DNA from: a virus
Length of the DNA stretch: 26,921 nucleotides
Direction: 5' to 3' (one strand)
Virus record (IMG/VR): IMGVR_UViG_3300005617_000284
Span: 1 to 26,921 of that record
Below the pieces are notes generated by a model. That model had not been told where the DNA came from and ran no database searches. It saw only the letters and a program-made list of their open reading frames with translations. The translations under genes were made by a program, and so were the position numbers. Positions 327 through 15,220 of the stretch are shown here, one piece after another (positions within the stretch are counted from its first letter, which is position 1; every line of letters starts with the position of its first letter).

Positions 327-332
327 TACGTT
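327..332 (+). promoter_or_regulatory. TACGTT -10 box of a leaderless gene
   Basis: TACGTT fits the actinobacterial TANNNT -10 consensus and ends 6 nt before the ATG at 339, so transcription would start at or next to the A of the start codon. No Shine-Dalgarno sequence is seen before that ATG, which supports leaderless translation. A second TANNNT match, TACTGT at 307-312, could give a short leader instead. No convincing -35 is visible. Confidence 0.45.
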
Positions 333-338
333 CAGCTC

Positions 339-542
339 ATGCCGAAGGTGCAGCTCATGGGCGCGTGGGAGATCCGACAGCGCCTCGGCTATTCACGCGG
401 ATGGGTGGAAAGGCTGATCAGCCGCCGCGACTTTCCCGAGCCGTACGCGGTACTCCGCATGGGCAGCGTCTGGGACGCCGGGGACGTCGAGGCGTGGATC
501 CGCGAGCACCGGCCGGAGCTGGACGAGCCCGACGAGGGCTGA
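339..542 (+). CDS. Small HTH DNA-binding protein, excisionase/AlpA-like
   Basis: This 67-residue protein has the layout of a MerR-type/HTH_17 (AlpA or Xis-like) winged helix. It contains WEIRQRLGYSRGWVERLISR (about residues 10-29) as helix-turn-helix, then DFPEPYAVLRMGSVWDAGDV as the wing, and an acidic C-terminal helix WIREHRPELDEPDEG. Such proteins act as excisionases, directionality factors or small transcription regulators. The ATG at 339 is chosen because the HTH starts right after it and because TACGTT sits 6 nt upstream; the open frame further upstream looks non-coding. It faces the minus late operon and ends just before a bidirectional terminator. Whether it is an excisionase or a regulator cannot be told, because no integrase is in view. 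Confidence 0.72.
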   Translation: MPKVQLMGAWEIRQRLGYSRGWVERLISRRDFPEPYAVLRMGSVWDAGDVEAWIREHRPELDEPDEG

Positions 543-556
543 CCCCCGGACACGAA

Positions 557-588
557 GAAAGCCGCCCTCCCGGAGGAGGGCGGCTTCT
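557..588. terminator. Bidirectional intrinsic terminator
   Basis: A perfect 10-bp GC stem GCCGCCCTCC (561-570) / GGAGGGCGGC (575-584) with a CGGA tetraloop is flanked by AGAAA on the left and TTCTCT on the right. It lies between the convergent stops of the HTH gene (542, plus) and the last lysis-region gene (622, minus), so it can end both transcripts. Confidence 0.8.
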
Positions 589-621
589 CTATGTGCTCCC
601 GGCTGGCCGGGGTGATCGGGG

Positions 622-855
622 TTACTGCATGAGGTGCTGCGGGGGAATCGGGTCGGAGCCGTTCACCGTCCCGGTGTTGCGGGCGAAGTAGACGCCGACC
701 GCGGTCATGATGCCGAGGCCGACCGCGCCGCCGATCAGGCCGGCCCAGCCTTCCTGCGAGGTGGGCTTATCGCCGTTGATCAGCGCGGCCCAGACGGCGG
801 ATACGGCAGCACCAGCGCCGGCCACGACGGCTTTCTTGATGCGCGCGAGGTTCAT
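622..855 (-). CDS. Two-helix small membrane protein, putative holin
   Basis: The protein has 77 residues. After a basic start (MNLARIKK) there is a hydrophobic stretch at about residues 9-26 (VVAGAGAAVSAVWAALI), a polar loop with NGDKPTSQEG, and a second helix at about 38-57 (GLIGGAVGLGIMTAVGVYFA), then a short polar tail. Size, two-helix topology and location at the end of the lysis region fit a class II holin, which would release the endolysin through the inner membrane. The ATG at 855 has GGAGG 4-5 nt upstream; the frame continues further upstream but without a ribosome site. It is the last gene of the minus operon before the terminator at 557-588. It could also be an unrelated small membrane protein. 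Confidence 0.65.
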   Translation of the reverse strand: MNLARIKKAVVAGAGAAVSAVWAALINGDKPTSQEGWAGLIGGAVGLGIMTAVGVYFARNTGTVNGSDPIPPQHLMQ

Positions 856-874
856 GGTTCCTCCGAACATGCGT

Positions 875-880
875 TCTAAT
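875..880 (+). promoter_or_regulatory. TCTAAT -10-like hexamer of a leaderless gene
   Basis: TCTAAT lies 6 nt (GAGGGG) before the ATG at 887. It deviates from TANNNT at position 2 but keeps the same spacing, and the same GGGG before ATG, as the clear cases at 4044 and 11889. The GAGGGG itself is too close to the ATG to serve as a normal ribosome site. Confidence 0.3.
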
Positions 881-886
881 GAGGGG

Positions 887-1165
887 ATGGAGCGGGTCGA
901 CCTGACACGGCTGGACGGCACGACCCGGCATCAGACCTGGCGGTGTGGCTGGGTGTACGGGCCGTTCGTCACGCACGTCTGTGTGGGTGAGCTGGCCGAT
1001 GGCAGGTGGTTCGCCGAGCGGTACGGCCGGGCAGCGTCGGTGCGGGACCTGCGCGAGGGTGCGTGCGTGTACGCGGGACCGGACGCCGAGCACTACGCGC
1101 GGGGCACGGCGCGGCGGTGGATGCGGACCGTCGGCGGGGAGTGGGTGGAGGCGCCAAGCCCGTGA
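887..1165 (+). CDS. Hypothetical small soluble protein, moron-like
   Basis: This 92-residue protein is rich in aromatic and charged residues, with no membrane segment. A beta-like first half contains RHQTWRCGWVYGPFVTHVCV and ELADGRWFAERYGRAASV; a second half has DLREGACVYAGPDAEHYARG and ends in EWVEAPSP. The alternating hydrophobic pattern and normal third-position GC suggest a real gene. The gene is on the plus strand, divergent by 31 bp from the holin-like gene and against the direction of the late operon, with a -10-like box 6 nt before the ATG. This is the arrangement of a moron expressed independently of late genes. No function is recognised. Confidence 0.6.
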   Translation: MERVDLTRLDGTTRHQTWRCGWVYGPFVTHVCVGELADGRWFAERYGRAASVRDLREGACVYAGPDAEHYARGTARRWMRTVGGEWVEAPSP

Positions 1166-1174
1166 CCTGCGGCG

Positions 1175-1180
1175 TATGGT
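1175..1180 (+). promoter_or_regulatory. TATGGT -10 box upstream of a structured intergenic segment
   Basis: TATGGT matches TANNNT and is identical to the box in front of the plus-strand gene at 4056. Here no ATG follows at 6-7 nt; a start near 1187 would give a transcript into the hairpin-rich segment. There is no clear -35. Confidence 0.3.
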
Positions 1181-1186
1181 CCGTTC

Positions 1187-1447
1187 GGTCGGATCGGATC
1201 GCCCGATCAGGTGGCACATATTCAGGCGCTTGCACCTGAATTTTCAGGGTGTCACGCTGGTGGGGTCAGCGAGGGCAGCGGGTGGTGCCGGCCGGTAGCT
1301 GAACGGCGAAGCCGCTGGGCCGGCCCGACGGGGCGAACCGCAGGCGAGTGTGGGGGCTTGGATCCCCCCGGTGGGCCGCTACCGAGCGACGGCGGGAGTG
1401 CGGCGAGCAAGCGCGTGAGGGCCTGGCGGTCACCAACCGCCGGGCCC
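1187..1447 (+). ncRNA. Putative structured non-coding RNA or complex regulatory segment
   Basis: The stretch between the stop at 1165 and the stop of the minus gene at 1457 has no convincing coding frame but many nested inverted repeats. These are GATCGG/CCGATC (1192-1197/1203-1208), TTCAGG/CCTGAA/TTCAGG (1221-1248), GCCGGCC/GGCCGGC (1287-1293/1318-1324) enclosing CGGC-GAA-GCCG, GGGGG/CCCCC (1352-1356/1364-1368) and CGGT/ACCG (1369-1384). The last is a 12-bp stem at 1419-1447. In that final stem the only non-Watson-Crick position is U1424-G1442, a wobble pair in plus-strand RNA but a C-A mismatch in minus-strand RNA, which favours a plus-strand transcript. A 92-codon plus frame crosses the region but shows no family. 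The RNA is inferred only. Confidence 0.35.
1419..1447. terminator. GC-rich 12-bp stem-loop, possible terminator
   Basis: GGGCCTGGCGGT (1419-1430) pairs with ACCGCCGGGCCC (1436-1447) around a CACCA loop. It could end the putative plus-strand RNA or, on the minus strand, lie 10 nt past the stop of the gene at 1457. There is no T-tract on either side, so efficiency is uncertain. Confidence 0.4.
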
Positions 1448-1456
1448 TGCGTGCGT

Positions 1457-1738
1457 TCACCGCTCCGGGCAGCCGAAGCTGACCCGTAGCTTGTGGATCT
1501 CCGCGGCCACCTTCTCGCCGAGCTCCGTCGTCGGCTTCGGCGGCCCCTCGTACGCCTCGTCGAGGTCGGACAGCAGGGCACACCAGCGCCGGTCGGACTC
1601 GACCCGGACCGCCGCGGCGCGCCGCTCGGCCTGCTTCTGCACGAAGGTCGTGTAGCCCACGCCCGCGAACGAGACCACCAGCACCGCCACGAACGCCAAC
1701 GTGATCGCGTACCAGAACCGCACGTACGGCGTGCTCAC
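1457..1738 (-). CDS. Small single-span membrane protein of the lysis region
   Basis: This 93-residue protein has one strong N-terminal transmembrane helix (about residues 9-28, WYAITLAFVAVLVVSFAGVG). A charged, probably coiled-coil region follows (FVQKQAERRAAAVRVESDRR) and then a soluble tail with CALLSDLDEAYEG and a late Cys. The two Cys (about residues 53 and 90) could pair if the tail is outside the membrane. It starts at a GTG overlapping the upstream stop (GTGA, 1735-1738), so it is probably translationally coupled to the preceding membrane protein. Possible roles are accessory holin, spanin-like factor or lysis regulator. The topology resembles an Rz-like i-spanin, but the host would be Gram-positive with no outer membrane to fuse, so that is unlikely unless it is mycolate-bearing. 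Confidence 0.65.
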   Translation of the reverse strand: MSTPYVRFWYAITLAFVAVLVVSFAGVGYTTFVQKQAERRAAAVRVESDRRWCALLSDLDEAYEGPPKPTTELGEKVAAEIHKLRVSFGCPER

Positions 1739-1995
1739 GGCTCACCCTCCGCCGAGGAGGACGAACGCGAGGGCGATCCCGACCGCGGCGAGGACGACGA
1801 CCGACCACGACCAGCGCCGCTCGAAGGCCGCAGCTGCCACACCCGGATGCCGCCCGCTATGCCCAGCAGGCCCATGCAGGTGGTGAGCAGCTGCCCGTTC
1901 ACGTGCCCGCTGACGATCTGATACGTGATCCCGCCCAGGCCCACCAGCACGCAGCCCGCGTCCCGGACGTACCCAATCAGCTTCTCGGGGCTCAC
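1735..1995 (-). CDS. Small holin-like membrane protein with Arg/Ser tail
   Basis: The 86-residue protein has a short N-terminus (MSPEKLIGYVRDA), hydrophobic helix 1 at about residues 13-28 (AGCVLVGLGGITYQIV), a short polar turn SGHVNGQ, and helix 2 at about 35-50 (LLTTCMGLLGIAGGIRV). A low-complexity tail very rich in Arg and Ser follows, ending EGEP. Two helices and a highly charged C-terminal tail are typical of phage holins. It starts 5 nt after the endolysin stop at a GTG without a clear ribosome site, so coupling to endolysin translation is likely, and its end overlaps the next gene by GTGA. Holin is the best guess, shared with the proteins at 622 and 1457. Confidence 0.65.
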   Translation of the reverse strand: MSPEKLIGYVRDAGCVLVGLGGITYQIVSGHVNGQLLTTCMGLLGIAGGIRVWQLRPSSGAGRGRSSSSPRSGSPSRSSSSAEGEP

Positions 1996-2000
1996 TCACG

Positions 2001-2837
2001 TCACGCGGCCGGCCGGTCGACCAGGATCCGCAGGGCGCCGATGATCGCATCCTGCAGCTCGGCCTCGGTGACGGCCGCCGGGAGCGGCAGCAGCGGGGCC
2101 AGCGCGGCGGCGAGCGCGGTCACATCGACCGTGGCCGGCTGGGCCACGGCGGTGCGGACGGCCTGTACGCCGGCGGCGATCGCCGTGACGTCGCTCTGCA
2201 GGGCCTGCAGGTTCTGCCAGGTGTAGGTGCGATCCGCGCCGGGGCTGCGCGGGTAGCTGGAGTTCAGCGCGGCGTCACCCACGGGGCTGTGCTGGCCGCC
2301 GCCGCTGGCCCACGCCGCGTTCGTGATCAGCGCGTCGAGCCGCGCTTCGATCCAGTCCTTGTCGTCGGCGGAGAGCGACACGAGATCCTCCAGGCGGTAG
2401 TCGAAGCTGGTGTTGTTGTCGGCGGCCTGGGTGAACTGGCCGGTGAAGTGGATGTGCTCGGTGTGCGCGGACGCGCCGGTGTATGTCTCGCCCGCCCAGC
2501 CGTTCGACGCCCGGTAGATCTTCCGGTTGTAGATGAGGTAGCGCAGGACGTTCGAGACGCCGGGCAGCGCGCGGATGTGGTCGACGACCTGCTGCGCGGT
2601 CACCCCGGGCGTGCGCAGGTCGGAGTCCATGTCCCAGGCTCGGACCTCGGGGGTCGAGTCCGGGTCGCCGTTCCACTCCGGCGTCGAGCCTGCGGTGTCG
2701 TCGGGGTTGTGGCTGCTCGTCTCGGCCTGGTGGGCGGCGTCGCCGATCGTGCCGTCGCTGGCCTTGTCCCGGCCAGGGAAGGCCGCGTTGACCTGGTTGC
2801 GCAGGTTCTGCAGGCCGAGGGTGAGGATCCAGCCCAT
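2001..2837 (-). CDS. Endolysin, M15-like zinc peptidase
   Basis: This 278-residue protein has an N-terminal domain with the zinc-site pattern of M15 (D-Ala-D-Ala carboxypeptidase or L-Ala-D-Glu endopeptidase) enzymes. His43 lies in SSHNPDD, Asp69 in VRAWDMDSD, and His128/His130 in AHTEHIHF, with a conserved Trp nearby. It is expected to cut peptidoglycan stem peptides at lysis. The second half (residues about 155-278) is helical and Ala-rich with a WQNLQALQSDV coiled segment and is not a known wall-binding domain; it may serve for oligomerisation or tail association. The ATG at 2837 has GGGAGG 4 nt upstream. It is followed directly by holin-like genes, the normal lysis-cassette order. No signal peptide is seen, consistent with holin-dependent release. 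Confidence 0.8.
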   Translation of the reverse strand: MGWILTLGLQNLRNQVNAAFPGRDKASDGTIGDAAHQAETSSHNPDDTAGSTPEWNGDPDSTPEVRAWDMDSDLRTPGVTAQQVVDHIRALPGVSNVLRYLIYNRKIYRASNGWAGETYTGASAHTEHIHFTGQFTQAADNNTSFDYRLEDLVSLSADDKDWIEARLDALITNAAWASGGGQHSPVGDAALNSSYPRSPGADRTYTWQNLQALQSDVTAIAAGVQAVRTAVAQPATVDVTALAAALAPLLPLPAAVTEAELQDAIIGALRILVDRPAA

Positions 2838-2849
2838 GGGTCCTCCCTT

Positions 2850-3449
2850 CTAGACGGGGTAGACGATGCTGCCGGAGATGTAGTCGGACGCCGCCCACGT
2901 CCACGGGACAGTGGCCCCGACGATCCCGGAGTTGGTGACCATGCCGAGAAACGAACCACCGCCGGCGTCGAGGTAGCAGGTGCCGGCCGAGAAGGCGCCG
3001 CTCGAACTGTCGGCGAGTTGGATGGTCCCGACGGCCGGATGCAGGGAAGACCCGAACGGCGTCGCCCCGGTGACCGGCACGGAGACCTGGTAGTTACCGG
3101 TGCCCGCCGCGACACCGCTCGTCCCGAACTTGAAGAAGAAGGTATAGGCGATCGAGTCCGGGAAGTACGTGTAGAAGCCCGTCGCCGTGCTGCCGGTGCC
3201 CAGCGTCGGCGATGTGCCGGTCGACGTCAGCGTCGGCGTGATGGTGGACGAGCGGGACGAGCAGACGGGCTTCCAGGCGCCGAAGTCGAACTTCTGCACC
3301 TTGTGGGTGTCGGTCTCGTAGATGTGCATCCCTGTGGGCGGGCTCGACGGGCGCGTCCCCGACGTGCACGGCACGATCGTCTGCTGCAGCAGCGGGTTGA
3401 AGTAGGTGGACGCGCCCGGCACATCACCGGTGACCAACAGGGTGTACAT
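2850..3449 (-). CDS. Tail-tip or fibre-like structural protein
   Basis: The 199-residue protein is beta-rich, with many Ser, Thr and Gly and few charges. It has a Tyr/Phe-rich middle (GFYTYFPDSIAYTFFFKFG) and a repeated alternating pattern down to the C-terminal DYISGSIVYPV. Composition, and the place between tail-tip genes and endolysin, suggest a virion surface or receptor-contact protein. No family name can be given. The ATG at 3449 shares its A with the upstream stop (TGATG), so it is translationally coupled to the gene at 3449-4021. Three Cys residues are spread out and form no clear metal motif. Confidence 0.6.
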   Translation of the reverse strand: MYTLLVTGDVPGASTYFNPLLQQTIVPCTSGTRPSSPPTGMHIYETDTHKVQKFDFGAWKPVCSSRSSTITPTLTSTGTSPTLGTGSTATGFYTYFPDSIAYTFFFKFGTSGVAAGTGNYQVSVPVTGATPFGSSLHPAVGTIQLADSSSGAFSAGTCYLDAGGGSFLGMVTNSGIVGATVPWTWAASDYISGSIVYPV

Positions 3450-4021
3450 CAGGCTCCCATCCCGTCGACGAAAGCGCGGACGTTGGCGACGACCTGCGCG
3501 CCGATCTGCCGCGCCGCCGCCTGCTCGTACTGTTCGTCGCCGGTGCGGCAGGCCCAGTGCACGTCCACGAACACGCACGCCCAGCCGGTCTGACCCGCCC
3601 GGGCTGCGGCCCGGGCGACCGGGTCGAGGCCCGGCCCGATCGCGAGCTTCGCGACCATGTCGCCGTGCTTGATCGGCCTGTGGCAGCCGGGGCACAGCTG
3701 GCCGATCGCCTGCGGATCGGGCGGGCCGGGGCTGTTCGCGTCGGGCGCGGCTGCGATGTAGCCCTCGATCTCGGTGATGTGGATCAGCTGGCCCATGCCG
3801 TCGACCCGGGCGAAGAGCACGTCGTCGTCGTCCGGGAGGTTCCCGAGGCCGCGGCGGATCGCGTAGCCCTGCGCGCGCGGGTCGCCGGGGTTGTCGCGCC
3901 AGGAGACGCCGTCGCCGAGCCGGTCGTACCAGTCGACGACGTCGGCCTGGTGCCCACCCAGCTCCGCGGCGTCGTGGCGTAGCCGAACCTTCTTGCCCGC
4001 GTACGGGCTGGGATCGCGCAT
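3449..4021 (-). CDS. Hypothetical protein with zinc-ribbon-like C-terminus
   Basis: This protein has 190 residues. The N-terminal part has a small basic beta domain (PYAGKKVRLRHDAAELGGHQ, then DVVDWYDRLG). A middle acidic segment (LPDDDDVLFARVDGMGQLIH) is followed by a C-terminal putative metal site: CPGCHRPI, then HGDMVAKLAIGPG, then VHWACR. The CxxCH...HWxC arrangement suggests a structural zinc site. Its place after the tail hub and before the tail-tip protein suggests a tail accessory or assembly role, but this is inference. The ATG at 4021 is the best start, as the frame upstream runs into the divergent plus-strand gene's promoter. A GAGAGG sequence lies about 11 nt upstream, a rather long spacing, so the start is not certain. 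Confidence 0.6.
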   Translation of the reverse strand: MRDPSPYAGKKVRLRHDAAELGGHQADVVDWYDRLGDGVSWRDNPGDPRAQGYAIRRGLGNLPDDDDVLFARVDGMGQLIHITEIEGYIAAAPDANSPGPPDPQAIGQLCPGCHRPIKHGDMVAKLAIGPGLDPVARAAARAGQTGWACVFVDVHWACRTGDEQYEQAAARQIGAQVVANVRAFVDGMGA

Positions 4022-4043
4022 GCAGCGGCCCGCCTCTCGGTCG

Positions 4044-4049
4044 TATGGT
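4044..4049 (+). promoter_or_regulatory. TATGGT -10 box of a leaderless gene
   Basis: TATGGT fits TANNNT and ends 6 nt (TCGGGG) before the ATG at 4056. The TCGGGG gives no normally spaced ribosome site, so a leaderless mRNA starting at or next to the ATG is likely. It lies in the 34-bp divergent gap with the minus gene starting at 4021. Confidence 0.5.
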
Positions 4050-4055
4050 TCGGGG

Positions 4056-4274
4056 ATGACGGATCGGGAGGCACTGCTGGCGCTGCTGGCACGCTTCGGG
4101 CTAAAGCCGTTTACCGGCACTGAGGCCGATGGCTGGTCGAACCTGGATGCGCCAAAGGCGAACCAGGTCATGCTGGTCGCGCATGTCGGCGGCGTAGAGG
4201 GCTACAGCGACTTCCACGCCAGGTTCGCCTTTGACGCCAATGGCAAGTTCGAGGACCTCGGCATCTGGGAGTAG
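4056..4274 (+). CDS. Small acidic hypothetical protein, moron-like
   Basis: The 72-residue soluble protein begins with a helix (MTDREALLALLARFGLKPF) and continues with a predicted beta part that includes NQVMLVAHVGGVEGYSDFHA and ends with ARFAFDANGKFEDLGIWE. Alternating hydrophobic residues and the well-formed ends suggest a real alpha/beta mini-protein. It is on the plus strand, wedged between two tail genes of the minus operon, 34 bp from the divergent start at 4021 and 8 bp from the convergent stop at 4283. The TATGGT box 6 nt before the ATG points to its own leaderless transcript. Its slightly lower G+C than neighbouring tail genes fits later acquisition. Function unknown; the N-terminal helix and beta sheet could suit an inhibitor or immunity-type protein, but nothing proves it. 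Confidence 0.65.
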   Translation: MTDREALLALLARFGLKPFTGTEADGWSNLDAPKANQVMLVAHVGGVEGYSDFHARFAFDANGKFEDLGIWE

Positions 4275-4282
4275 GCGCCCCG

Positions 4283-5572
4283 TCAGTAAGCGATTGCGTT
4301 TTGGCCGACGCGGCCGAGGATCGGGTCGCCGACCGTGAAGAAGCTGTACCGGTCGGCGTCCTGCAGGACGAACGCCGAATCCCAGGCCGTGCCCTCCGAC
4401 GACATCTCGATGCCCCGGATGAAACACGACTTCTCGATCGCCGAGCCGCCGCCTTTCGGCCGTCGCCGCACCGTGACCCGATCCGAGAACCGCGCCCCGA
4501 GCAGCAGCGGCCAGACCACCGCCTCGAGCGCCGGGTCCGGGCGGCGGAAGGAGATTTTCGAGAAGCGCCGGCGGGGCTGCGCGAACTGGTACAGCACCCA
4601 TTGCGCCCACTGCAGCGCGATCGCGTCGGACTGCACGAGCAGGTCATCACGCGTGTGGGTTTTGCGCAGGTACCGGCCCGTCGACGCCGAATCCTCGACG
4701 TGCTGCAAGGTGCCGCCGACCGCGGTCGCGTCGACGGAGTTGACCAGCGTCTCGTCCGGTGTCGTCGTCGTCAGGTCGGCGTACGGCAGCTCACCCGAGA
4801 TCAGGTAGCCCGCCGGGTCGTCACCGAACAGGGCCTGGCTCGTGGTCGCCCGCGAATCGGTGAGGACGAAGCGGCGGTTGCGGAAGACGACCCAGCCCTG
4901 CCGGTCCATGTACAGCGAGCCCTGCTCGGAGTCCTGCACGACCTGCATCTCTCCCAGCATGCCGCCGTCGAGCGTCGTCGCCTGCAACGTCGTGTCACCG
5001 GTTGAGATGTCCCGGTCCGTCGACGGCCAGCCGTAGACGTCGAGGATCCGGGTGATCCGCGCGCCCGAATCCTCACCGGCGCCGACCGCGCCGACCGCGG
5101 TACGGCTCTCGGCCTGGAACACCTTGAAAGCGTCCGTCGCGGTCAGCGTGCACGTCGACCAGAACGGGCCGTCGTAGTCGGTCTTCCAGTCGTCGGCGAG
5201 ACCGTAGTACAGCGGGTAGTCGATACCCGCCCACGTGCCGACGATCCGCACCCGCACCATCGGCGTCAGCAGCGTCTGCCCCGCCACCACGTACGGGCCG
5301 GCCAGGTTGTCCGGGTCGAATCGCCGGTCGCCGTCGTTGAGGACGATCGAGCAGGTACCGGCGTCGTACCGCAGGGTCGGGTCGTCGCCGTTGGTCGCGC
5401 CGATCCGGAACGACCAGGAGCGCAGGTAGTCGGTGATCTCCGTCCACACCGTGTCCGGGCCGATCTGGTTGACCGTGCCCACCTGGCCGAGCGTCGGATG
5501 CCCGACGGTGAAGTACGAGCCGCTCGTTGGCGTGCTGAAGCCGACGTAGACCCGGATCGTGGGCAGGGGCAT
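4283..5572 (-). CDS. Minor tail protein, tail hub/distal tail type
   Basis: This 429-residue protein begins MPLPTIRVYVGFSTP, followed by WTEITDYLRSWSFRIG and TCSIVLNDGDRRFDP. This is the pattern of actinophage minor tail proteins that resemble baseplate-hub (gp27/Dit-Tal) domains, where an early D-R-x-F/Y-D-P segment is common. Its position directly after the tape measure gene in transcription order agrees. The middle part is mixed alpha/beta with YADLTTTTPDETLVNSVDAT; the C-terminus ends FTVGDPILGRVGQNAIAY. The ATG at 5572 abuts the tape measure stop (5573). It probably joins the tail tube to the tip complex. The GDP.LG element appears both near the N-terminus (GHPTLGQVG) and at the C-terminus (GDPILGRVG), a small internal similarity. 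Confidence 0.75.
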   Translation of the reverse strand: MPLPTIRVYVGFSTPTSGSYFTVGHPTLGQVGTVNQIGPDTVWTEITDYLRSWSFRIGATNGDDPTLRYDAGTCSIVLNDGDRRFDPDNLAGPYVVAGQTLLTPMVRVRIVGTWAGIDYPLYYGLADDWKTDYDGPFWSTCTLTATDAFKVFQAESRTAVGAVGAGEDSGARITRILDVYGWPSTDRDISTGDTTLQATTLDGGMLGEMQVVQDSEQGSLYMDRQGWVVFRNRRFVLTDSRATTSQALFGDDPAGYLISGELPYADLTTTTPDETLVNSVDATAVGGTLQHVEDSASTGRYLRKTHTRDDLLVQSDAIALQWAQWVLYQFAQPRRRFSKISFRRPDPALEAVVWPLLLGARFSDRVTVRRRPKGGGSAIEKSCFIRGIEMSSEGTAWDSAFVLQDADRYSFFTVGDPILGRVGQNAIAY

Positions 5573-8500
5573 CTACAGCACCTTCTGCCCATTCACCCGA
5601 AGCTCGCCGCCGCCCTGCAGATACGCGCCGAGATAGTTGATGACCTCGGCGCCGATCTCACGCGGATGCGAGCCGACCGCAGCGTTGATCGTGAGGTTGA
5701 CGTTGGTCACCCCGCCGCCGCTTCCGCCGCCCTGCCAGTTCGGGATGACCTTCTCCGTCTGGTAGTTCTCGCCGAAGGAGTAGGTGCGGCCGGATGCGCC
5801 GACACCGAAGATCGGCTCGGTTATGCTGCCGCCATGCTTCATCGCCCAGTGGTCGTGGGCGTTGCCGCCGGCGAAGTTGTGCTGGTTCTCGACGAGGGCC
5901 GAGTACTGGTGGCGGCGGCCGTTCTTGATGTTCAGGCTCTGCCACGGGGTGATCAGCTCACGGGTCGCCGCGAAGTAGTGCGCGTTGACCCACTCGGCGA
6001 GCGCTCTGCTCGGGGCGAAGTCCACCGCCCGGCCAACTGCGTGGTAACTGCGGTTACCGGTGATCGTGATCGCGCCCGGCCGGTAATCGGAGTAGATGCC
6101 GATGCCCGGGAAAGCAGCACGGACAACCCGCTCCATCCACTTGTAGCCCGGCCCGCTACCACCGCCCGGCATGGCCGGGATGATCGCGTTGAGCGCCTCC
6201 GCCTTCGACGGAATCCTTGTCATCGCGGCCGAAACGGGGAACGGCCACACCCGGCCCCCGGTGGCGTAGCCAGGCCACTTTCCGGTCTGGTTCATGTAGT
6301 CCAGGCCGCCCGGGTTGGCCGCTTCCAAGCTGCGGCGCGACGACTGCTGGATGACATGCTCGTCGCGGTGAACGACGCCTGCGGGTTCCCATTTCGAGCC
6401 CGGCCCGGTCCAGCCGCCCTCGGCGAACACGCCGCGGTCCTTCGCCGCCTTCGCGTCGCCGGCGAGCGCTCGGGCTGCTGACGTCGAGATCGAGACGCCT
6501 TTCCTCAGGGCGTTCTGCTCGATGTTCAACGCCCGCAGCTTGATCATCGCGGCTTCGTCGCCGGTGACCGACACGTTGGCCCGGTATGGCCCAGCGAAGT
6601 GATTGGCGGCCGTGTACGCCTTGTCGAGGTCTGTCTTCGCCTGCTTCGCGCCCGGGGCCGACGCGTCGGCCGCGTACTTCCCGGCGAACTTGTCGGCCGA
6701 CGTCTTCGCGGTCTTGAACTGCTGCTCGACCTGGGCGATCTGACCCTTGGTCAGTCCGGCCGCCTTCAGGGTGGCCACGAACGCCGGGCTGAGTTTGCCG
6801 TTGAACGCGCTGCTGAGATTGCCGACCGCACCTTGCAACCCCAATGCCGCCTGGGCCAGATCGATGTCAGCGGCGCGCGCCTCGTCACTCTTACGACCGT
6901 GCGCCTTGACGGCGTCGGTGTAGGCCTTCTGCGCGTCTTTGAGCTTCTTCTGCGCGTCGATCAGCGCGAACATCGGGTCGGTTTCGGCCTTCAGGGTGGA
7001 GAACAGGGCGCCGAGCGCCTCCCGCTCACCCCGAGCCGCGCCGGCAACGGCATCGGCAGTTGACTTGTACTTCTCCTGGCCCGCCGCGCCGATAGCCAGC
7101 GCTGAGTTCAGGTCGCCGACTTTGCCGGTCGTGGATTTGCTGGCGTTTCCAGCGGTTTCGACGGCGGCGGCGTACTGGGGGAACTGCTTGCGGAACTCCT
7201 CCATCGACACCTTGCCGGTGGCGAGTTGGGAGGCGAGCGCCTGGAAGGCCTGGTTCGCGGCGGTGGCGTTGCCGCTGGACACCATCTGGGCCAGCGCCGC
7301 GTCGACAGATGCGATCCGCTCCCTCGTCTGGGTGAGCGAATCGTTGGCGCCCTTGAGACCTGGAACAATCGATTCCAGGCCACCCTGGATGTTACGGGCC
7401 CACGTGCTCTTCCCGCCGGTGTCGGCGACCAGGTCAAAGGTCTTCTTGAGGTCGCCCAGATTGTCGCCGAGCACGCGGGATGTCTCACCTGCGGTCTGTC
7501 CGGTCTGGGCGTACTTCTGCAGGCCGACGGCCAGCGCGTCGATCTGCGGATTCAGGTCTTTCTGGAAATGACCGATGACCTCGCCTGCGACCTGCAGGGC
7601 GGCGAACACGATACTCGCCTTGCCTGCGGCGCCGGCGAGTTTGCCCATGCTCGCCGAAGCGCGCTCGCCCACCGGCCCCATGGCTTCCAGTTCTGCCCGC
7701 ACCTCAGCCGTCTGCTTGCGCAGCTTGACCCACCCGGCGCCCAGCACCAGGGCAGCACCACCGACGCCCGCCAGGACGGTGATGGTGCTGCCGACGAACG
7801 GCGGCAGCGACGCGAACGCGTTCACCAGTTCGTTGACCGACTTGACCAGGATGCGTATGCCGCCATTCGCGCCGGAACCGGACTGGATCGCGAGAGTCTC
7901 GATCGAGCCCTTCAGTCGCTCGAGATCGCCGGCCAGGTTGTCGGTCTGGATCTGGGCGGTCTTCGCTGCGTACCCGGCATCGTCGACGGCTGACCGCCAC
8001 TTCTTCACGCCATCGGCGCCATCGGAGTACAAGACCGAGGCAGCGCGGATCGCGTCGTTGCCGAACAGCTGCCCGAGCGCCTGCTGCCGCTGCGCATCCG
8101 TCAGCCCCTTGAGCCGGGTCTGCAGCACCTGGGCGACACCCGAGATCCCGATGAACTTGCCCTGTGCGTCGTAGAACGAGATGCCGAGGTCGTTCATCAG
8201 GTCGCGGGTCTGCTTCGACGGGTTCGCGATCGCCAGCAGCATCGTCTTGAACGACGTCCCAGCGTCGGAGCCCAGCAGGCCCGCCGAAGCGAACTCCGCC
8301 AGCGCGCCAGTGGTGTCTTCGATGCTCAGCCCGAACTGCGAGGCGACGAGACCGCTCTGATTCAGCGCCGCGCCCATGTCGTGGACGGAGCCCTGGGCCT
8401 TGCCCGCGCCGGCGGCGAGTAGGTCGGCGATGTGCGGGATGTCCTTGCCGGACAGCTTGAACTGCGTCATGGCGCTGGCCGCGGTCTCGGCCGCTTCGCC

Positions 8501-8950
8501 GACGGACAGTTGCCCAGCCGCGGCGAGAGACAGCGCGCCCTTGAGCCCGCCGTTGAGCACGTCCGCCGTCGATACGCCCGCCTTGGACAGCTCGGTAATT
8601 GCGTCGGCGGCCTGCGTCGCCGAGTATTGCGTGTCCTTGCCCGCCTGCAGGGCGGCTGCACGGAGAGCGCCGAGATCCTTGACGGTGCCGCCCGAACCGA
8701 GGATCGCGGCGTGCACACCGGACATCGCCTTGTCGAAATCGGCGCTCATCTTCAGAGCCCCGACCGCCAGACCTGCCAGGCCTATACCGGCGATTCCCGC
8801 CGCGTCGGCAATCTTGTCGAGCTTGCCGCGCTGGGCCGCCTTGTCGAGCTTGCCCTGAAAGTCCTTCGTCGCCGCGCCGGCCCGGCCGAGCGCTGAGGTG
8901 TATTGGGAGATGTCAGCGGTGAGCTTCACTCCTACGGTGCGCAGCGCCAC
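5573..8950 (-). CDS. Tape measure protein with M15-like peptidase domain
   Basis: The protein has 1125 residues. Residues about 65-270 are a TP901-type tape measure core (ADFDKAMSGVHAAILGSGG; QAADAITELSKAGVS; AFASAGLLGSD-type segments). A hydrophobic segment near residues 380-402 (STITVLAGVGGAALVLGAG) may insert in the host membrane. Long Ala/Lys/Gln helical parts follow. Residues about 925-1045 carry an M15-like zinc peptidase signature: SYHAVGRAVDF with His970 and Asp977, and AHDHW with His1034. The C-terminus is Gly-rich, then a short beta part. The protein sets tail length (roughly 1.5 angstrom per residue predicts about 170 nm) and probably trims peptidoglycan during DNA entry. GTG start, 3 nt after the upstream stop. 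Family assignment is firm; the peptidase specificity is not. Confidence 0.92.
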   Translation of the reverse strand: MALRTVGVKLTADISQYTSALGRAGAATKDFQGKLDKAAQRGKLDKIADAAGIAGIGLAGLAVGALKMSADFDKAMSGVHAAILGSGGTVKDLGALRAAALQAGKDTQYSATQAADAITELSKAGVSTADVLNGGLKGALSLAAAGQLSVGEAAETAASAMTQFKLSGKDIPHIADLLAAGAGKAQGSVHDMGAALNQSGLVASQFGLSIEDTTGALAEFASAGLLGSDAGTSFKTMLLAIANPSKQTRDLMNDLGISFYDAQGKFIGISGVAQVLQTRLKGLTDAQRQQALGQLFGNDAIRAASVLYSDGADGVKKWRSAVDDAGYAAKTAQIQTDNLAGDLERLKGSIETLAIQSGSGANGGIRILVKSVNELVNAFASLPPFVGSTITVLAGVGGAALVLGAGWVKLRKQTAEVRAELEAMGPVGERASASMGKLAGAAGKASIVFAALQVAGEVIGHFQKDLNPQIDALAVGLQKYAQTGQTAGETSRVLGDNLGDLKKTFDLVADTGGKSTWARNIQGGLESIVPGLKGANDSLTQTRERIASVDAALAQMVSSGNATAANQAFQALASQLATGKVSMEEFRKQFPQYAAAVETAGNASKSTTGKVGDLNSALAIGAAGQEKYKSTADAVAGAARGEREALGALFSTLKAETDPMFALIDAQKKLKDAQKAYTDAVKAHGRKSDEARAADIDLAQAALGLQGAVGNLSSAFNGKLSPAFVATLKAAGLTKGQIAQVEQQFKTAKTSADKFAGKYAADASAPGAKQAKTDLDKAYTAANHFAGPYRANVSVTGDEAAMIKLRALNIEQNALRKGVSISTSAARALAGDAKAAKDRGVFAEGGWTGPGSKWEPAGVVHRDEHVIQQSSRRSLEAANPGGLDYMNQTGKWPGYATGGRVWPFPVSAAMTRIPSKAEALNAIIPAMPGGGSGPGYKWMERVVRAAFPGIGIYSDYRPGAITITGNRSYHAVGRAVDFAPSRALAEWVNAHYFAATRELITPWQSLNIKNGRRHQYSALVENQHNFAGGNAHDHWAMKHGGSITEPIFGVGASGRTYSFGENYQTEKVIPNWQGGGSGGGVTNVNLTINAAVGSHPREIGAEVINYLGAYLQGGGELRVNGQKVL

Positions 8951-8953
8951 AAC

Positions 8954-9325
8954 TCACCTCTCCCGGATCGTGGTGCCCCACAGGCGGGCGTTGGCGTTGC
9001 GGAGCGGCTTCTTGCCGTCGTCGGTCAGGCTGTTGACGGTCTCTTCGATCGCTCGGGTCGCCCGGCACATCGACTGGTCGACCGCGAACTGCGGACCCGT
9101 CGCCTCGTCGGAGGTGCACACATCGAGCGGCCGCCCGCATTTCGGGCACAGGCCCTCGCGGTAGATGACCAGGGCGATCAGCTCGGCCCGGTCCTGCTCG
9201 GTGTACAGGGGCTCCCGGGTCGTCACCGACCGGACGAGGCGGCCCCGCCGGTACTCGTACTCGGTGACCTCGGCCGGTTCACGCCCGTCGAGCCGCGACG
9301 GAGGGACGCCTTGCCGCTCGGCCAC
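8954..9325 (-). CDS. Tail assembly chaperone, downstream (frameshifted) part
   Basis: Read from the GTG at 9325 it has 123 residues: a charged N-terminus, EYEYRRGRLVRSVTTREPLY, a helix TEQDRAELIALVIYREGLCP, a CPKCGRPLDVC metal-like motif, and a helical end with LTDDGKKPLRNANARLWG. Its position between the first chaperone and the tape measure gene matches the gpT-like partner of long-tailed phages. Its frame is -1 to the upstream gene and is open without stop back to the CCCTTTC site at 9373-9379, so most of the functional product may be a fusion of about 310 residues. Independent initiation at the GTG 2 nt after the upstream TAG is also possible, but no clear ribosome site is present, which favours frameshifting. 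Confidence 0.72.
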   Translation of the reverse strand: MAERQGVPPSRLDGREPAEVTEYEYRRGRLVRSVTTREPLYTEQDRAELIALVIYREGLCPKCGRPLDVCTSDEATGPQFAVDQSMCRATRAIEETVNSLTDDGKKPLRNANARLWGTTIRER

Positions 9326-9327
9326 TT

Positions 9328-9885
9328 CTACTCGGCGGCGGAAGCCCGCATCAGCTCCGAGGCGTCTGACGAGAAAGGGATATCCACGTCACCCCGGTTG
9401 AGGTACCAGGCCGCGCCGGCCAGATCCTCGAACTGGTTCTCGGTGAGCGTGTCCATGAGCTGTAACCAGGTCTCGTCGTCGAGTTCTGGGTCAACGATGC
9501 AGAGGCGAGTCAGCGGCTCGAATCCGGTTTCGATGTTGAAGCCGTAGACCAGGTCTTCGCGCTTGGGCTCGTTCTTGTCGTCGAGCCGGATCGGGTACTC
9601 GGCCTTGAACGCGCGGAACTTCGGCGCCGGCAGAGCGCGGAGCCGGAACTCGGCGACGCTGCCCTGCATCTCGGCTTCGAGGGCCTGGATGCGTTCGGCG
9701 ATCTCGGCGGTTCCGTTGCCTGCCAGGCTGTTGCCTGGCCGCTTCTTGGCCTTCTCGAGCTCGCGTTCGGCTGCCTGATGGTCGGCGACCAGGTCGCCGC
9801 GTAGGCAGATCTCGACGGTGCGCTCGGGCAGCTTCGCTCCGGCGAGCATCGCCTTGAAGTTCTTCAGGGTGGCCTTGCCGCTCAT
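9328..9885 (-). CDS. Tail assembly chaperone, upstream part (gpG-like)
   Basis: This 185-residue, mostly helical, acidic protein starts MSGKATLKNFKAMLAGAKLP. It has a helical hairpin around residues 30-80 (HQAAERELEKAKKRP; AEIAERIQALEAEMQGSVAE) and a conserved-looking RALPAPKFRAFKAEYP. Its C-terminal part is LTENQFEDLAGAAWYLNRGD. It precedes the tape measure gene by one gene, the classic chaperone location. These proteins bind the tape measure protein and recruit tail tube subunits. It starts with ATG overlapping the upstream stop (ATGA) and ends in TAG 2 nt before the next GTG. A slippery CCCTTTC lies 14 codons before its stop. Confidence 0.8.
   Translation of the reverse strand: MSGKATLKNFKAMLAGAKLPERTVEICLRGDLVADHQAAERELEKAKKRPGNSLAGNGTAEIAERIQALEAEMQGSVAEFRLRALPAPKFRAFKAEYPIRLDDKNEPKREDLVYGFNIETGFEPLTRLCIVDPELDDETWLQLMDTLTENQFEDLAGAAWYLNRGDVDIPFSSDASELMRASAAE
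9373..9379 (-). other. Candidate programmed -1 frameshift site CCCTTTC
   Basis: On the minus strand the heptamer C-CCT-TTC has the X-XXY-YYZ form in the reading frame of the upstream chaperone (Pro170-Phe171). A -1 slip puts the ribosome in the frame of the gene ending at 8954, with no stop between; the new residues are LVRRLGADAGFRRRVE, then the known downstream protein. The shifted frame matches by coordinate arithmetic. A downstream stimulatory structure was not resolved. Confidence 0.6.
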
Positions 9886-10121
9886 CGGTGCGTCACCACC
9901 GTCTCGACGATCGTCGGGCTCGCTCCCTGTGCATTGGTGCGGATGCGCCGGACAGTGATGCGGTCCGGTGTCACCTCGACCGAGTGCAGGTCGGGCGCGT
10001 CGAAGCCGAGCGCGTTCAGTAGGTCGCGCACCTGGTCGATGTCAAGGCTCGTCTCGCCGAGCACGGGGTCGTAATGCAGCGTCCAGCCGCATCCACAGGA
10101 TCCAGTCGCCACGCCGGTCAC
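9882..10121 (-). CDS. Small hypothetical protein between tail tube and chaperone genes
   Basis: With the GTG at 10121 (GTGA overlap with the upstream stop) the product has 79 residues; a GTG at 10139 would add six residues and a 22-bp overlap. It contains a small Cys pair in GSCGCGWTLHYDP, a helix IDQVRDLLNALGFDAPDL, and a beta part VEVTPDRITVRRIRT ending VETVVTHR. No family is recognised. Both neighbours are overlapped, so it is co-translated with them. It may be a small tail assembly factor or an unrelated passenger gene. Confidence 0.55.
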   Translation of the reverse strand: MTGVATGSCGCGWTLHYDPVLGETSLDIDQVRDLLNALGFDAPDLHSVEVTPDRITVRRIRTNAQGASPTIVETVVTHR

Positions 10122-10504
10122 CGCCCGCACGTCGGGCACTTGGCGTCCAGGTACTTCTGGACGATCAGCGGCGGCGGCACCTTCATCGGCTTGGTGATGG
10201 TGGTTTCTTCGAGCCGGTTCGCGCCGTAGCGGATGACGAGACCACCGACGCCGTCCTTAGGTGCAACGCGGACACGCACGCGGGTGGTGATCGTGTGCCC
10301 GCCGAGCGGCGTGCCATCGCCGTCTCGGTAGCTGCAATCCGGGCGCTCATCGGCTGGCACGAGCGCCGGGTCGATGCCGTTGTCACGCAGCCAGTCACAG
10401 ATGGCGGTGCGGAGCTCAGGGTGGGCGTTGGGTTCTCCGTGACCGAGGGCGACGAATTCCCCGACATCGGCCTTGAGGGTCACTTTTACTTCACGACTTG
10501 CCAC
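10118..10504 (-). CDS. Hypothetical protein with C-terminal CPTCGR
   Basis: The 128-residue protein has the N-terminus VASREVKVTLKADVGEFVAL, then a helix with HPELRTAICDWLRDNGIDP, a basic beta region TITTRVRVRVAPKDGVGG, and ends DAKCPTCGR, half of a zinc ribbon. The GTG at 10504 is well placed behind AGGAGAG (3 nt gap AAC). It is the first gene after the terminator and large hairpin downstream of the major tail gene, so its expression is probably reduced compared with the tube protein. Function not recognised; it and the next gene form a two-gene insert between tube and chaperones. Confidence 0.6.
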   Translation of the reverse strand: MASREVKVTLKADVGEFVALGHGEPNAHPELRTAICDWLRDNGIDPALVPADERPDCSYRDGDGTPLGGHTITTRVRVRVAPKDGVGGLVIRYGANRLEETTITKPMKVPPPLIVQKYLDAKCPTCGR

Positions 10505-10534
10505 GTTCTCTCCTACCCGAACGTCCCGAACTGA

Positions 10535-10571
10535 GTGCCCGGCCGCCGGTTCGGGAGCGGCGGCCGGGCAC
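10535..10571. repeat. 13-bp perfect inverted repeat hairpin
   Basis: GTGCCCGGCCGCC (10535-10547) and GGCGGCCGGGCAC (10559-10571) pair perfectly around an 11-nt loop. It lies right after the T-tract terminator in the minus direction. It may be a second stage of termination, an RNA-stability element or a regulatory hairpin before the ribosome site of the next gene. Confidence 0.7.
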
Positions 10572-10572
10572 G

Positions 10573-10595
10573 AAAAAACCGCCCCGAGAGGCGGC
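10573..10595 (-). terminator. Intrinsic terminator after the major tail gene
   Basis: On the minus strand a GC stem (GGCGG/CCGCC arms at 10590-10594 and 10579-10583) is followed by six T residues (10578-10573). It is 19 nt past the stop of the major tail protein gene and is the only hairpin in the window with a true T-run. It would cut expression of downstream tail genes relative to the abundant tube protein. Confidence 0.8.
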
Positions 10596-10613
10596 GTCTG
10601 GTTGGGTTGCGGA

Positions 10614-11108
10614 TCAGGCGACGGCGGCGCGCAGCGACGGGCCGGTGCCGGCGGCACCCGCGGTGATCTTGATCGGCAGCTCGTACCGCTCGACCGAGTT
10701 GGGCTCCGGGTCCATGCGCGCGACCTCGGCGATCAGCGCCGGGTACACCTCGACCGCCTGGGCCGACGCCCAGGCGGTCGACTGGGTGACCGAGCGGCGG
10801 ATCACCAGAAAGCCCGCGGTATCGCGAACCAGGGTGGTGAAGATCGTGTCGGTGCCCGACTGCTTCTTCAGCCGAAGTCGGCTGTTCGAGAACGAGCTCC
10901 GGCCGTTGACCACGGCGTTGAACGTCGAGGCCAGCGACGACACGTCCACATCGGCAGTGTCCGGCTGGAACCCGGACAGGCCGTCGGCGGTCAGCGTCGC
11001 CGTCAGGTCAATGCCCGCGTTCAGCTCGCTCGTGGTCGGGGCGTTCTGGTTGCTGATGCTGGTGACCCAGTACACCCTGGTCTTGCCATCAGCGGTGATG
11101 TCCGGCAT
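10614..11108 (-). CDS. Major tail (tube) protein
   Basis: This 164-residue beta-rich protein begins MPDITADGKTRVYWVTSISN and has SELNAGIDLTATLTADGLSG, a typical start of actinophage tail-tube proteins. It continues with RSSFSNSRLRLKKQSGTDT and DTAGFLVIRRSV and ends PSLRAAVA. Size, order (two genes after the tail terminator group, before the chaperones) and the following strong terminator all fit the tube subunit. The ATG at 11108 has AAGGAG within the end of the preceding gene, a strong site befitting an abundant protein. It assembles with the tape measure protein and chaperones into the tail tube. Confidence 0.85.
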   Translation of the reverse strand: MPDITADGKTRVYWVTSISNQNAPTTSELNAGIDLTATLTADGLSGFQPDTADVDVSSLASTFNAVVNGRSSFSNSRLRLKKQSGTDTIFTTLVRDTAGFLVIRRSVTQSTAWASAQAVEVYPALIAEVARMDPEPNSVERYELPIKITAGAAGTGPSLRAAVA

Positions 11109-11112
11109 CTAC

Positions 11113-11469
11113 CTACTCCTTCTTGTCGCCGCTGGTGGCGGACTTGGCGGGCTTGGGCGCCGGCGTTTCCGCCGGGGCGGTCTCCTCGATGACCGGCCAG
11201 TGCGCCGTCGCGGCATTCACCGGATTCGGCGGCGCTCCGGGTGTCCAGCCGCGGCCGGTCCAGGCGTCGAGTTGCGCGGCTTCCCAGGCCATCCGGGCTG
11301 CGCCGAGGTCGGGGTTCTCGTTGCGCATCCAGACGAAGTCGTGCCGGTCCGGCGCGGTCGCCTCGGACCAGCCGTGTACGCGCTGCCAGCGGTCACGCTC
11401 GTCGAGGCCCTCGACCAGGGCCCGCGTGCCGTCGGCGTCGGCGATCCAGTAGCTCTGCTTGTCGGCCAC
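11113..11469 (-). CDS. Conserved tail-region hypothetical protein
   Basis: The 118-residue protein has a compact N-terminal domain of about 75 residues. That domain includes ADADGTRALVEGLDERDRWQ, VHGWSEATAPD, DFVWMRNENPDLGAARMAWE and AWTGRGWTPG. A Pro/Ala/Lys-rich flexible tail follows, ending KSATSGDKKE. Proteins of this look are common directly before actinophage major tail genes, but no function is known to me. GTG start 1 nt after the preceding stop. The flexible tail may be a linker or an interaction tail. Confidence 0.68.
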   Translation of the reverse strand: MADKQSYWIADADGTRALVEGLDERDRWQRVHGWSEATAPDRHDFVWMRNENPDLGAARMAWEAAQLDAWTGRGWTPGAPPNPVNAATAHWPVIEETAPAETPAPKPAKSATSGDKKE

Positions 11470-11470
11470 G

Positions 11471-11809
11471 TCAGACCCTCTTCAGTTCGTAGGTGACACC
11501 GGTGAGTGCGCCGGAGAACGTCACGGTCGCCAGGCCGGTCGCCGGATTCACGGCGGAGTTCGGGATCAACGTCTCCCGCGTGCCGGTGGCCGGGGCTGCC
11601 AGCGTCGGCGGCGATCCCGCGTTGGCCGAGGGCGTCGTGCCGGGATCGAGGACGACCACGTTCGTCGCGGTGCCGGTCGTGATGACCCGCAGCAGCACGC
11701 CCGCCGGGCCGAAGCTCGACTGGGCGATCGTGTCCGAGGCGGATGGCGTGATGGCGGCAGGCGTGCTCAGTGCACCCGCGCTGACGGTTTGTGAAGCCTG
11801 GAGCGCCAC
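11471..11809 (-). CDS. Beta-rich virion protein, decoration-like
   Basis: This 112-residue protein is built of Ala, Thr, Ser, Val and Gly with almost no charge. It begins VALQASQTVSAGALSTPAAI, followed by TPSASDTIAQSSFGPAG, VLLRVITTGTATNVVVLDPG, and ends GALTGVTYELKRV. The pattern resembles small head-decoration or head-fibre domains with one beta sandwich. The GTG at 11809 is chosen because AAGGGGG lies 7-8 nt upstream; the frame upstream overlaps the promoter of the plus-strand gene and looks non-coding. Location before the tail tube gene also allows a tail surface role. Confidence 0.6.
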   Translation of the reverse strand: MALQASQTVSAGALSTPAAITPSASDTIAQSSFGPAGVLLRVITTGTATNVVVLDPGTTPSANAGSPPTLAAPATGTRETLIPNSAVNPATGLATVTFSGALTGVTYELKRV

Positions 11810-11827
11810 GCGGCGCACCCCCTTATT

Positions 11828-11850
11828 GGACAGAAATCGGACAGGAAATC
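11828..11850. repeat. Adjacent direct repeat GGACAG(G)AAATC
   Basis: GGACAGAAATC (11828-11838) is followed directly by GGACAGGAAATC (11839-11850), two copies differing by one inserted G. It lies in the gap between the minus gene starting at 11809 and the leaderless plus gene at 11902, so it may be a protein-binding site for either direction. Confidence 0.45.
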
Positions 11851-11888
11851 CGCCGAATGACCGACGGTGATCTCTTGCGTGCGCGCCG

Positions 11889-11894
11889 TACCCT
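11889..11894 (+). promoter_or_regulatory. TACCCT -10 box of a leaderless gene
   Basis: TACCCT matches TANNNT and ends 7 nt (GCGGGGC) before the ATG at 11902, the same architecture as at 327 and 4044. There is no normally spaced ribosome site before the ATG. No clear -35. Confidence 0.5.
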
Positions 11895-11901
11895 GCGGGG
11901 C

Positions 11902-12078
11902 ATGGCATCGACGAGCGCAGAATCCCGCTGGCGGCTATCCAGCGTCGGTAACCGAGTGATGTGGGCGGTCGTGGCCGCATTCCTGACCTGGCTCGTCTTC
12001 CACGGCGCGGTACTGCCCATCGCCGTAGGCCTGGTGGTCTTCGCGGTCCTGACTGCGGTCGTCGCTTCCCGGCGCTAG
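11902..12078 (+). CDS. 58-residue two-helix membrane protein, moron-like
   Basis: A polar start MASTSAESRWRLSSVGNRV is followed by two adjacent hydrophobic helices at about residues 19-35 (VMWAVVAAFLTWLVF) and 38-54 (VLPIAVGLVVFAVLTAVV). The protein ends in ASRR, a membrane hairpin with basic ends. It is on the plus strand inside the minus tail operon; its TAG overlaps the TAG of the convergent tail terminator gene in a shared CTAG (12075-12078). A TACCCT box 7 nt before the ATG indicates its own leaderless transcript. A membrane moron in a lysogen could act in superinfection exclusion; this is inference from size and context only. Confidence 0.65.
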   Translation: MASTSAESRWRLSSVGNRVMWAVVAAFLTWLVFHGAVLPIAVGLVVFAVLTAVVASRR

Positions 12079-15194: not shown

Positions 15195-15220
15195 GGGTTA
15201 CCGCCCCTCGGCCGCCGGTC

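Follow-up and report, generated by a model that had tools for sequence, protein, structure and literature searches.

Four small genes in this viral sequence face a minus-strand late operon from the plus strand, each with a promoter-like hexamer just before its start codon. How such genes are expressed, and whether they share a role, is the question raised by this locus. We analyzed the whole stretch of 26,921 nt (the window), which derives from an actinobacterial temperate phage. The best similarity to known phages (75% matches) was confined to the tape measure of Arthrobacter phages. No near-identical known phage was found, genes 887, 4056, and 11902 (named by their start positions) had no phage matches, and scans of genome contigs for host prophages found none. 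The four open reading frames, 339, 887, 4056, and 11902, encode 67, 92, 72, and 58 amino acids, respectively, and PADLOC identified no convincing defence family among their proteins. We consider it likely that they are four leaderless units read by the host polymerase, with distinct roles that would include an SOS-controlled gene (887) and an exchange slot (4056).

The hexamers, their spacings, and the ATG codons all lie where the preliminary description placed them, on the plus strand: TACGTT at 327 to 332 (6 nt before ATG 339), TCTAAT at 875 to 880 (6 nt before ATG 887), TATGGT at 4044 to 4049 (6 nt before ATG 4056), and TACCCT at 11889 to 11894 (7 nt before ATG 11902). Three of these are TANNNT boxes; TCTAAT, although grouped with them as TANNNT-like, is not. 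Among 820 candidate ATG/GTG starts of open reading frames of at least 40 amino acids in the window, 4 are preceded by TANNNT at 6 to 7 nt. Three are genes 339, 4056, and 11902; the fourth, a frame at 5834 that falls within the tape-measure gene, was rejected as a leaderless gene. As reported earlier, a normally spaced ribosome site is absent, with an SD-like core 4 to 12 nt before the start in 0 of the 4 genes. Such a core precedes 20 of the 35 assigned minus-strand late genes, and TANNNT was found in the 25 bases upstream of none of those 35.

We then turned to related phages and compared 40 occurrences of the same gene families and slots. The start codon is preceded by TANNNT at 6 to 8 nt in 30 of the 40 (shuffle mean, 1.0; maximum, 6), counting instances that are not independent, since the phages are related, and some 339-family starts that were picked among in-frame candidates. 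The remaining 10 instances have TCTAAT or TCTACT at 6 nt, and no instance has TANNNT at spacings of 0 to 5 or 9 to 23 nt. Within the gap, 37 of the 40 sequences are distinct. The GGGG or GGGGC before the ATG, shared by three of the four genes and initially read as part of their design, is not a conserved element, as CAGCTC, CGGTTG, CGAGTT, and GACGCG are found as well; the gap sequences of the 887 family are G-rich. An SD motif at normal spacing occurs in 2 of the 40 instances, in both cases as AAGG inside the -10 box TAAGGT. Conservation of the hexamers where the genes occur had been named beforehand as a point on which the proposal could fall, and the relatives keep both the hexamers and the box-to-start spacing. 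These comparisons strongly support the predicted leaderless transcription from host-type -10 boxes. pN/pS was <1 in all testable pairs, pointing to purifying selection on genes 339, 887, and 11902, with 4056 excepted.

Gene 339 (339 to 542, plus strand) is a predicted leaderless excisionase/AlpA-like helix-turn-helix (HTH) gene. Its product matches phrog_66 (E = 3e-5), and a match to Pfam HTH_17 falls below the cut-off of that model. All 19 members of the family carry TANNNT at 6 to 8 nt. In relatives, the homologues adjoin the integrase gene and in most cases are accompanied by a paralogue, and integrase and repressor lie opposite the late operon, on the other strand; the window stops short of the integrase. 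A terminator-like hairpin with T-rich sides on both strands (559 to 586) separates gene 339 from the end of the late operon (z = -4.8; 0 of 200 shuffles fold equally well). Gene 339 had been taken for a moron in the late operon, a placement that we withdraw: it sits beyond this hairpin, in an integrase/excisionase-like module that it probably closes. A second in-frame ATG at 357, with an AAGG-like motif upstream, was rejected as the start: relatives do not conserve this Met, having VVG and LYG instead, but they do conserve the distance from the box to the first start.

Gene 887 (887 to 1165, plus strand) belongs to a family present in 12 loci (pN/pS, 0.14 to 0.55), and searches of PHROG, Pfam, and NCBIfam found no match for its product, including no homology to known antirepressors. 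Its -10 box is overlapped by CGAACATGCGTTC (864 to 876), a LexA (SOS) operator form and the sole site of LexA type in the window. The box reads TCTAAT instead of TANNNT because this site, of the form CGAAC-RNRY-GTTC, overlaps it. A LexA-type site occupies the same slot in relatives and persists there even though the accompanying repressors fall into three or more dissimilar groups. Each of nine genomes has a single GAAC-RNRY-GTTC, at the 887 slot. One half of the LexA-type site is decayed in L035-L037. A scan of all viral contigs for the composite promoter yielded 46 matches, versus 2 for reversed half-sites. The site also matches the ChIP-derived LexA consensus of Streptomyces (PMC9380542). 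A LexA-type operator on the -10 box makes it probable that gene 887 is not constitutive and is silent until DNA damage.

Downstream of gene 887 lies a weak candidate terminator (1220 to 1246, plus strand), a 7-bp stem followed by TTTTC with a z score of only -1.5, whose flank is conserved in L016 and L060. We rejected TATGGT at 1175 to 1180, with the noncoding stretch after it, as a fifth unit: the box is not conserved (TATCCG and TATCAG in homologues), and what looked like further copies of the stretch, in L023, in L050, and at another position in L060, are chance matches.

Two other accounts of the 887 site deserve consideration. Gene 887 could encode an SOS-induced antirepressor or induction factor that lifts a non-self-cleaving phage repressor, by analogy with Tum of 186 and the Gifsy antirepressors. 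In Gifsy prophages, too, a gene that is not in the immunity region bears a LexA-type site (PMC3121763), and five putative repressors of relatives have only HTH domains in Pfam and no peptidase S24. However, one 887 family goes with dissimilar repressors, its position in L111 is occupied by an unrelated gene, gene 887 adjoins a holin-like gene, and structure searches with the 887 model returned no significant match, so that we regard such a function as rather unlikely. It is less probable still that GAAC-N4-GTTC is the operator of a phage regulator (a repressor or Xis-like protein) and not of host LexA. HTH-type phage regulators are encoded in all these genomes, but each genome has one site of the RNRY form and none at the immunity region, the site type is identical beside dissimilar repressors, and its fit to the Streptomyces consensus favors LexA.

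Gene 4056 (4056 to 4274, plus strand) lies between two late genes and is replaced or absent in relatives; an identical copy was found solely in L006/L014. Five relatives retain its promoter flank (4022 to 4049, plus strand), -10 box included, although their cargo differs. Across phages, the slot holds two unrelated open reading frames, a tRNA that starts exactly 6 nt after the box, and RNA-like pieces. Neither the window nor the L002 and L011 slot RNAs had an Rfam match. Based on this exchange, gene 4056 alone among the four reads as a clear moron. The same flank also serves the opposite gene as its start region, and this role alone could account for some of the sequence conservation.

Gene 11902 (11902 to 12078, plus strand) encodes a small membrane-like protein and is predicted to be leaderless, with TACNNT at 6 to 7 nt in six records, the window included. 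Homologues in the same slot are 34 to 95% identical (pN/pS, 0.13 to 0.72), and the stop codon overlaps that of the convergent late gene. By these comparisons, this small gene is conserved and its slot is fixed. No terminator is visible after 4056 or 11902.

The preliminary description had treated the four genes uniformly, as morons expressed constitutively or in the lysogen. All four do have the box and spacing in common, and all lie on the strand that faces the late operon, like the integrase and repressor of relatives. This unity is nonetheless quite improbable, given that 339 belongs to an int/xis module beyond the late operon and that the -10 box of 887 carries a LexA-type operator. In relatives, many repressor-like genes and HTH genes share the box design, which is therefore no marker of morons. 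The moron label holds for 4056, whose cargo is exchanged, and the four genes do not form one functional set. We give almost no credence to the view that the TA-containing hexamers arose by chance, with translation of the four genes relying on leadered or read-through transcripts. A sigma-70 consensus scan, which requires a -35 element, found no promoter, and the lack of a -35 consensus would suit chance, but the spacing histogram and shuffles, the absence of such boxes at late genes, and the tRNA at an equal distance from its box argue against it.

In the explanation that we favor, for which we infer transcription start, LexA binding, expression state, and protein functions, the main RNA polymerase of the host would read the four plus-strand genes as single leaderless transcription units, independently of the opposing SD-led late operon, and the -10 placement would put the transcription start at, or 1 to 2 bases from, the start codon. 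The plus-strand lysogeny module would comprise a repressor, an integrase, and two excisionase-like HTH genes, with 339 last and ending at the hairpin. Host LexA on the -10 box would keep 887 off in the lysogen, and DNA damage would switch it on. At slot 4056, the promoter would stay fixed while cargo swaps between phages, and 11902 would be a conserved small membrane-like gene under its own leaderless promoter. More tentatively, the late operon may contain fixed promoter slots in which selection keeps the -10 box, in one case with a LexA operator, while unrelated protein-coding or tRNA-like units replace the cargo behind it. If so, the first base of a newcomer would fall at the transcription start and the newcomer would be expressed without a leader. 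The SOS slot would then let the response of the prophage to DNA damage change.

These results suggest a sequence rule for such phages, in which late genes are SD led and the genes opposite the late operon are leaderless and host promoted. The rule would predict which phage genes can be expressed in a lysogen and fix start codons that gene finders may misplace. From a LexA-boxed gene one would predict, for actinobacterial prophages with repressors that show no domain for self-cleavage, a function triggered by the SOS response. A promoter that stays in place as its cargo turns over offers a way for morons to be swapped while keeping expression.

Every element of this arrangement has precedent, including Corndog gene 53 and LexA-controlled prophage genes. 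Morons of lambdoid and other temperate phages are extra genes between late genes, variably present and with their own promoters. Slot 4056 resembles them in its position, its variable presence, and a predicted promoter of its own but differs in that the promoter stays while the cargo changes, a tRNA can be the cargo, and no terminator is visible. LexA-controlled prophage genes include the Gifsy antirepressors and Tum of 186 (PMC3121763), and prophage genes belong to the LexA regulon of S. venezuelae (PMC9380542). Gene 887 likewise has one LexA-type site at its promoter and lies outside the immunity region; it differs from the Gifsy and Tum cases in that the gene is predicted to be leaderless, with the operator on its -10 box, and lies in the late region of an actinophage, and in that its product showed no homology to known antirepressors. 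Another close case is promoter PL2 of Cluster O mycobacteriophages, at Corndog gene 53 (PMC4351075). As far as the accessible part of that account goes, PL2 is a prediction for non-temperate-looking phages with SigA-like -35/-10 elements, described without the LexA site or cargo exchange of the phage studied here (PMC4351075). In actinobacterial TA-led leaderless genes, TANNNT lies ∼12 bp upstream of the start codon (a gap of 6 to 8 nt), with no SD and no -35 consensus, and the phage genes agree with them in box position and in both absences (PMC3160421, PMC3898074). TA-led genes are known from bacterial chromosomes, whereas here the design follows a phage strand rule and includes one member with TCTAAT.

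Record lookup gave the window as an IMG/VR virus record, and its minus strand carries a siphophage morphogenesis operon in which profile searches identified terminase, major head protein, major tail protein, and tape measure. Sequence reading gave four short plus-strand ORFs facing this late operon, at 339-542, 887-1165, 4056-4274, and 11902-12078. The -10-like hexamers and gaps of all four lie exactly where the preliminary description placed them, 6 to 7 nt before the ATG, and, as it also held, all four are without a normally spaced ribosome site (SD-like motif at 4 to 12 nt in 0/4). Among the 35 assigned minus-strand genes, 20 have such a motif at that distance and none has TANNNT in the 25 bases upstream. 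TANNNT precedes the start of an ORF of ≥40 aa by 6 to 7 nt at 4 of 820 candidate starts in the window; three are genes under study and the fourth lies inside the tape-measure gene. In raw counts irrespective of codon use, the plus strand has 17 TANNNT sites and the minus, late-coding strand 8, about a twofold difference.

Comparison among relatives, which were found among viral contigs and then read, is a stronger test than counts within the window. The set held 40 instances from the four gene families and two slot replacements. TANNNT stands 6 to 8 nt before the start in 30 of these, which are not independent counts because the phages are related, and the remaining 10 have TCTAAT or TCTACT at 6 nt; TANNNT at spacings of 0 to 5 or 9 to 23 occurred in none of the 40. 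Some 339-family starts were picked among in-frame candidates, and for 887 and 11902 the start is set by protein matches that run from residue 1. With 37 different forms of the gap, the comparison shows conservation of box and spacing but not of gap sequence. The GGGG before the ATG, previously proposed as a shared element, is not fixed among relatives, although gaps in the 887 family are G-rich. Purifying selection acts on the ORFs where pairs are comparable; 4056 was left out of this test because its sole other copy is identical.

Upstream of the 887 -10 box lies CGAACATGCGTTC (864-876), the sole CGAACN4GTTC in the window. GAACN4GTTC occurs at the 887 slot in nine genomes, window included, with five spacers (ATGC, GCGT, ACGT, GTGC, and GTGT) that all fit RNRY, the spacer form of Bacillus LexA sites. 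Six of the nine have no further GAACN4GTTC, and three have one extra copy elsewhere, with spacers outside RNRY (AGCT, TCGT, and CGCT). The second half of the site has decayed in contigs L035-L037. In Streptomyces venezuelae, ChIP-seq gave a LexA consensus of tCGAAC-N4-GNNCGa, and the LexA targets with the strongest induction include prophage genes (PMC9380542). The site persists across relatives whose putative repressors form at least three dissimilar groups, which argues for 864-876 as a putative host LexA operator and against a phage repressor as its ligand.

Judging from position, the most likely course is that host RNA polymerase uses the boxes to start transcripts on or close to the start codon and that ribosomes then initiate on the leaderless message. 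LexA should block the 887 promoter until DNA damage. The 887 product might then be an SOS-controlled factor that lifts repression, for which Gifsy prophages offer a precedent (PMC3121763), and Pfam gives only HTH domains for the putative repressors. However, a single 887 family occurs with dissimilar repressors, and the gene is replaceable in its slot, so this possible role stays a minority reading. The modeled 887 protein has four strands and a helix (mean pLDDT, 75), and structure searches returned no significant match to it. In the relative G010 (L023:18541-19104), loss of the middle of the 887 homologue has put the conserved C-terminal portion out of frame; the promoter and the LexA-type site have been left intact. 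From 887 to the late gene ending at 1457 runs a noncoding stretch (1166-1456), with both ends conserved in L016, L060, and L022, a variable middle, and a strong 13-bp hairpin at ∼1415-1450 (z, -3.9).

Scanning all viral contigs for CGAAC-RNRY-GTTCTANT-N6-RTG gave 46 matches, against 2 for a control with reversed half-sites. They include the 887 family and a different gene in the same slot (L111:9793-9978), where the LexA-type leaderless promoter and neighbors are as at 887 and the cargo is an unrelated 61-aa ORF (MESDGYLDEDTRRW...). A large group of low-GC contigs has CGAACAAGTGTTCTATTAT, which we take to be a Bacillus-type SOS promoter, and a few matches are unrelated. In six high-GC contigs, the gene behind the composite promoter encodes a protein with an HExxHxERG-type motif, and one of these proteins has a weak Peptidase_M78 score. 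These ImmA/IrrE-like proteins, each behind the LexA-type/-10 composite with a 6-nt gap (L106:1813-2280, L072:4587-5024, L077:10800-11252, L078:1210-1671, and in L088 and L101), are encoded upstream of an integrase where readable and have homologues in Mycobacterium and Gordonia phages that carry a metallo-protease annotation. The arrangement suggests a repressor-cleaving peptidase under SOS control in these six contigs.

At 4056 the promoter is kept and the cargo exchanged: the 28 bases at 4022-4049, -10 included, are nearly identical in several relatives, and the downstream sequence is unrelated. Because this flank partly coincides with the start region of the opposite gene, it could be conserved for either of two reasons. 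The cargo is a 72-aa ORF in the window and L006, a different 104-aa ORF (MTDQEALEV...) in L045/L063, and in L016 a tRNA (1638-1715, minus strand; Rfam, 30.3 bits; threshold, 29) that starts exactly 6 nt past TAAGGT, the place of the ATG in the window; it has a putative four-base anticodon, and ARAGORN assigns it no amino acid. The slot of L043 (near 5660-5856) contains a tRNA-like element bearing a TTCGAAT arm, L002 and L011/L044 have pieces without Rfam match or tRNA call, and such a unit is absent from the slot in L018. Slot 11902 holds homologous small membrane-like proteins in six records, window included, each with TACNNT 6 to 7 nt before the start; the 11902 stop codon overlaps that of the convergent late gene.

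The four genes had been proposed as a set of morons expressed constitutively or in the lysogen, from which 339 must be removed. Gene 339 encodes a small HTH protein that hits an excisionase/regulator PHROG; genes of this kind come in twos, ∼1 kb apart, in most relatives, and 8/13 records contain a tyrosine integrase. In the related genome G002, a repressor-type HTH gene comes first on the strand equivalent to the window's plus strand, followed by integrase and two Xis-like genes, the second being the 339 homologue. Since a strong hairpin with T-rich sides (559-586) also separates 339 from the late operon end, the gene belongs to the lysogeny module. Among relatives, repressor-like and divergent HTH genes likewise have TANNNT 6 to 8 nt before the start, and therefore the design marks the lysogeny side generally. 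At 6 to 7 nt, such pairs in L047 (17561-17842, minus; 18048-18452, plus) and L056 (14722-14949, minus; 15168-15602, plus) suggest a leaderless immunity switch. Overlapping near-palindromes upstream of 339 (GTACACGTGTGCACGGTACGTGTACAT, 261-287) might serve as operators for a phage regulator; L016 has a related, yet different, arrangement. The promoters of 339, 4056, and 11902 are without visible restraint, which makes their expression in the lysogen plausible.

Actinobacteria are well known to have leaderless TANNNT genes (PMC3160421, PMC3898074), and prophage genes under LexA control are known (PMC3121763). Within the literature covered, a LexA-type operator fused to a leaderless promoter is new for the late region of an actinophage group, as are promoter slots that seem to outlast their cargo. 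For Cluster O mycobacteriophages, a leaderless gene opposing the structural operon was already a published prediction (PMC4351075).
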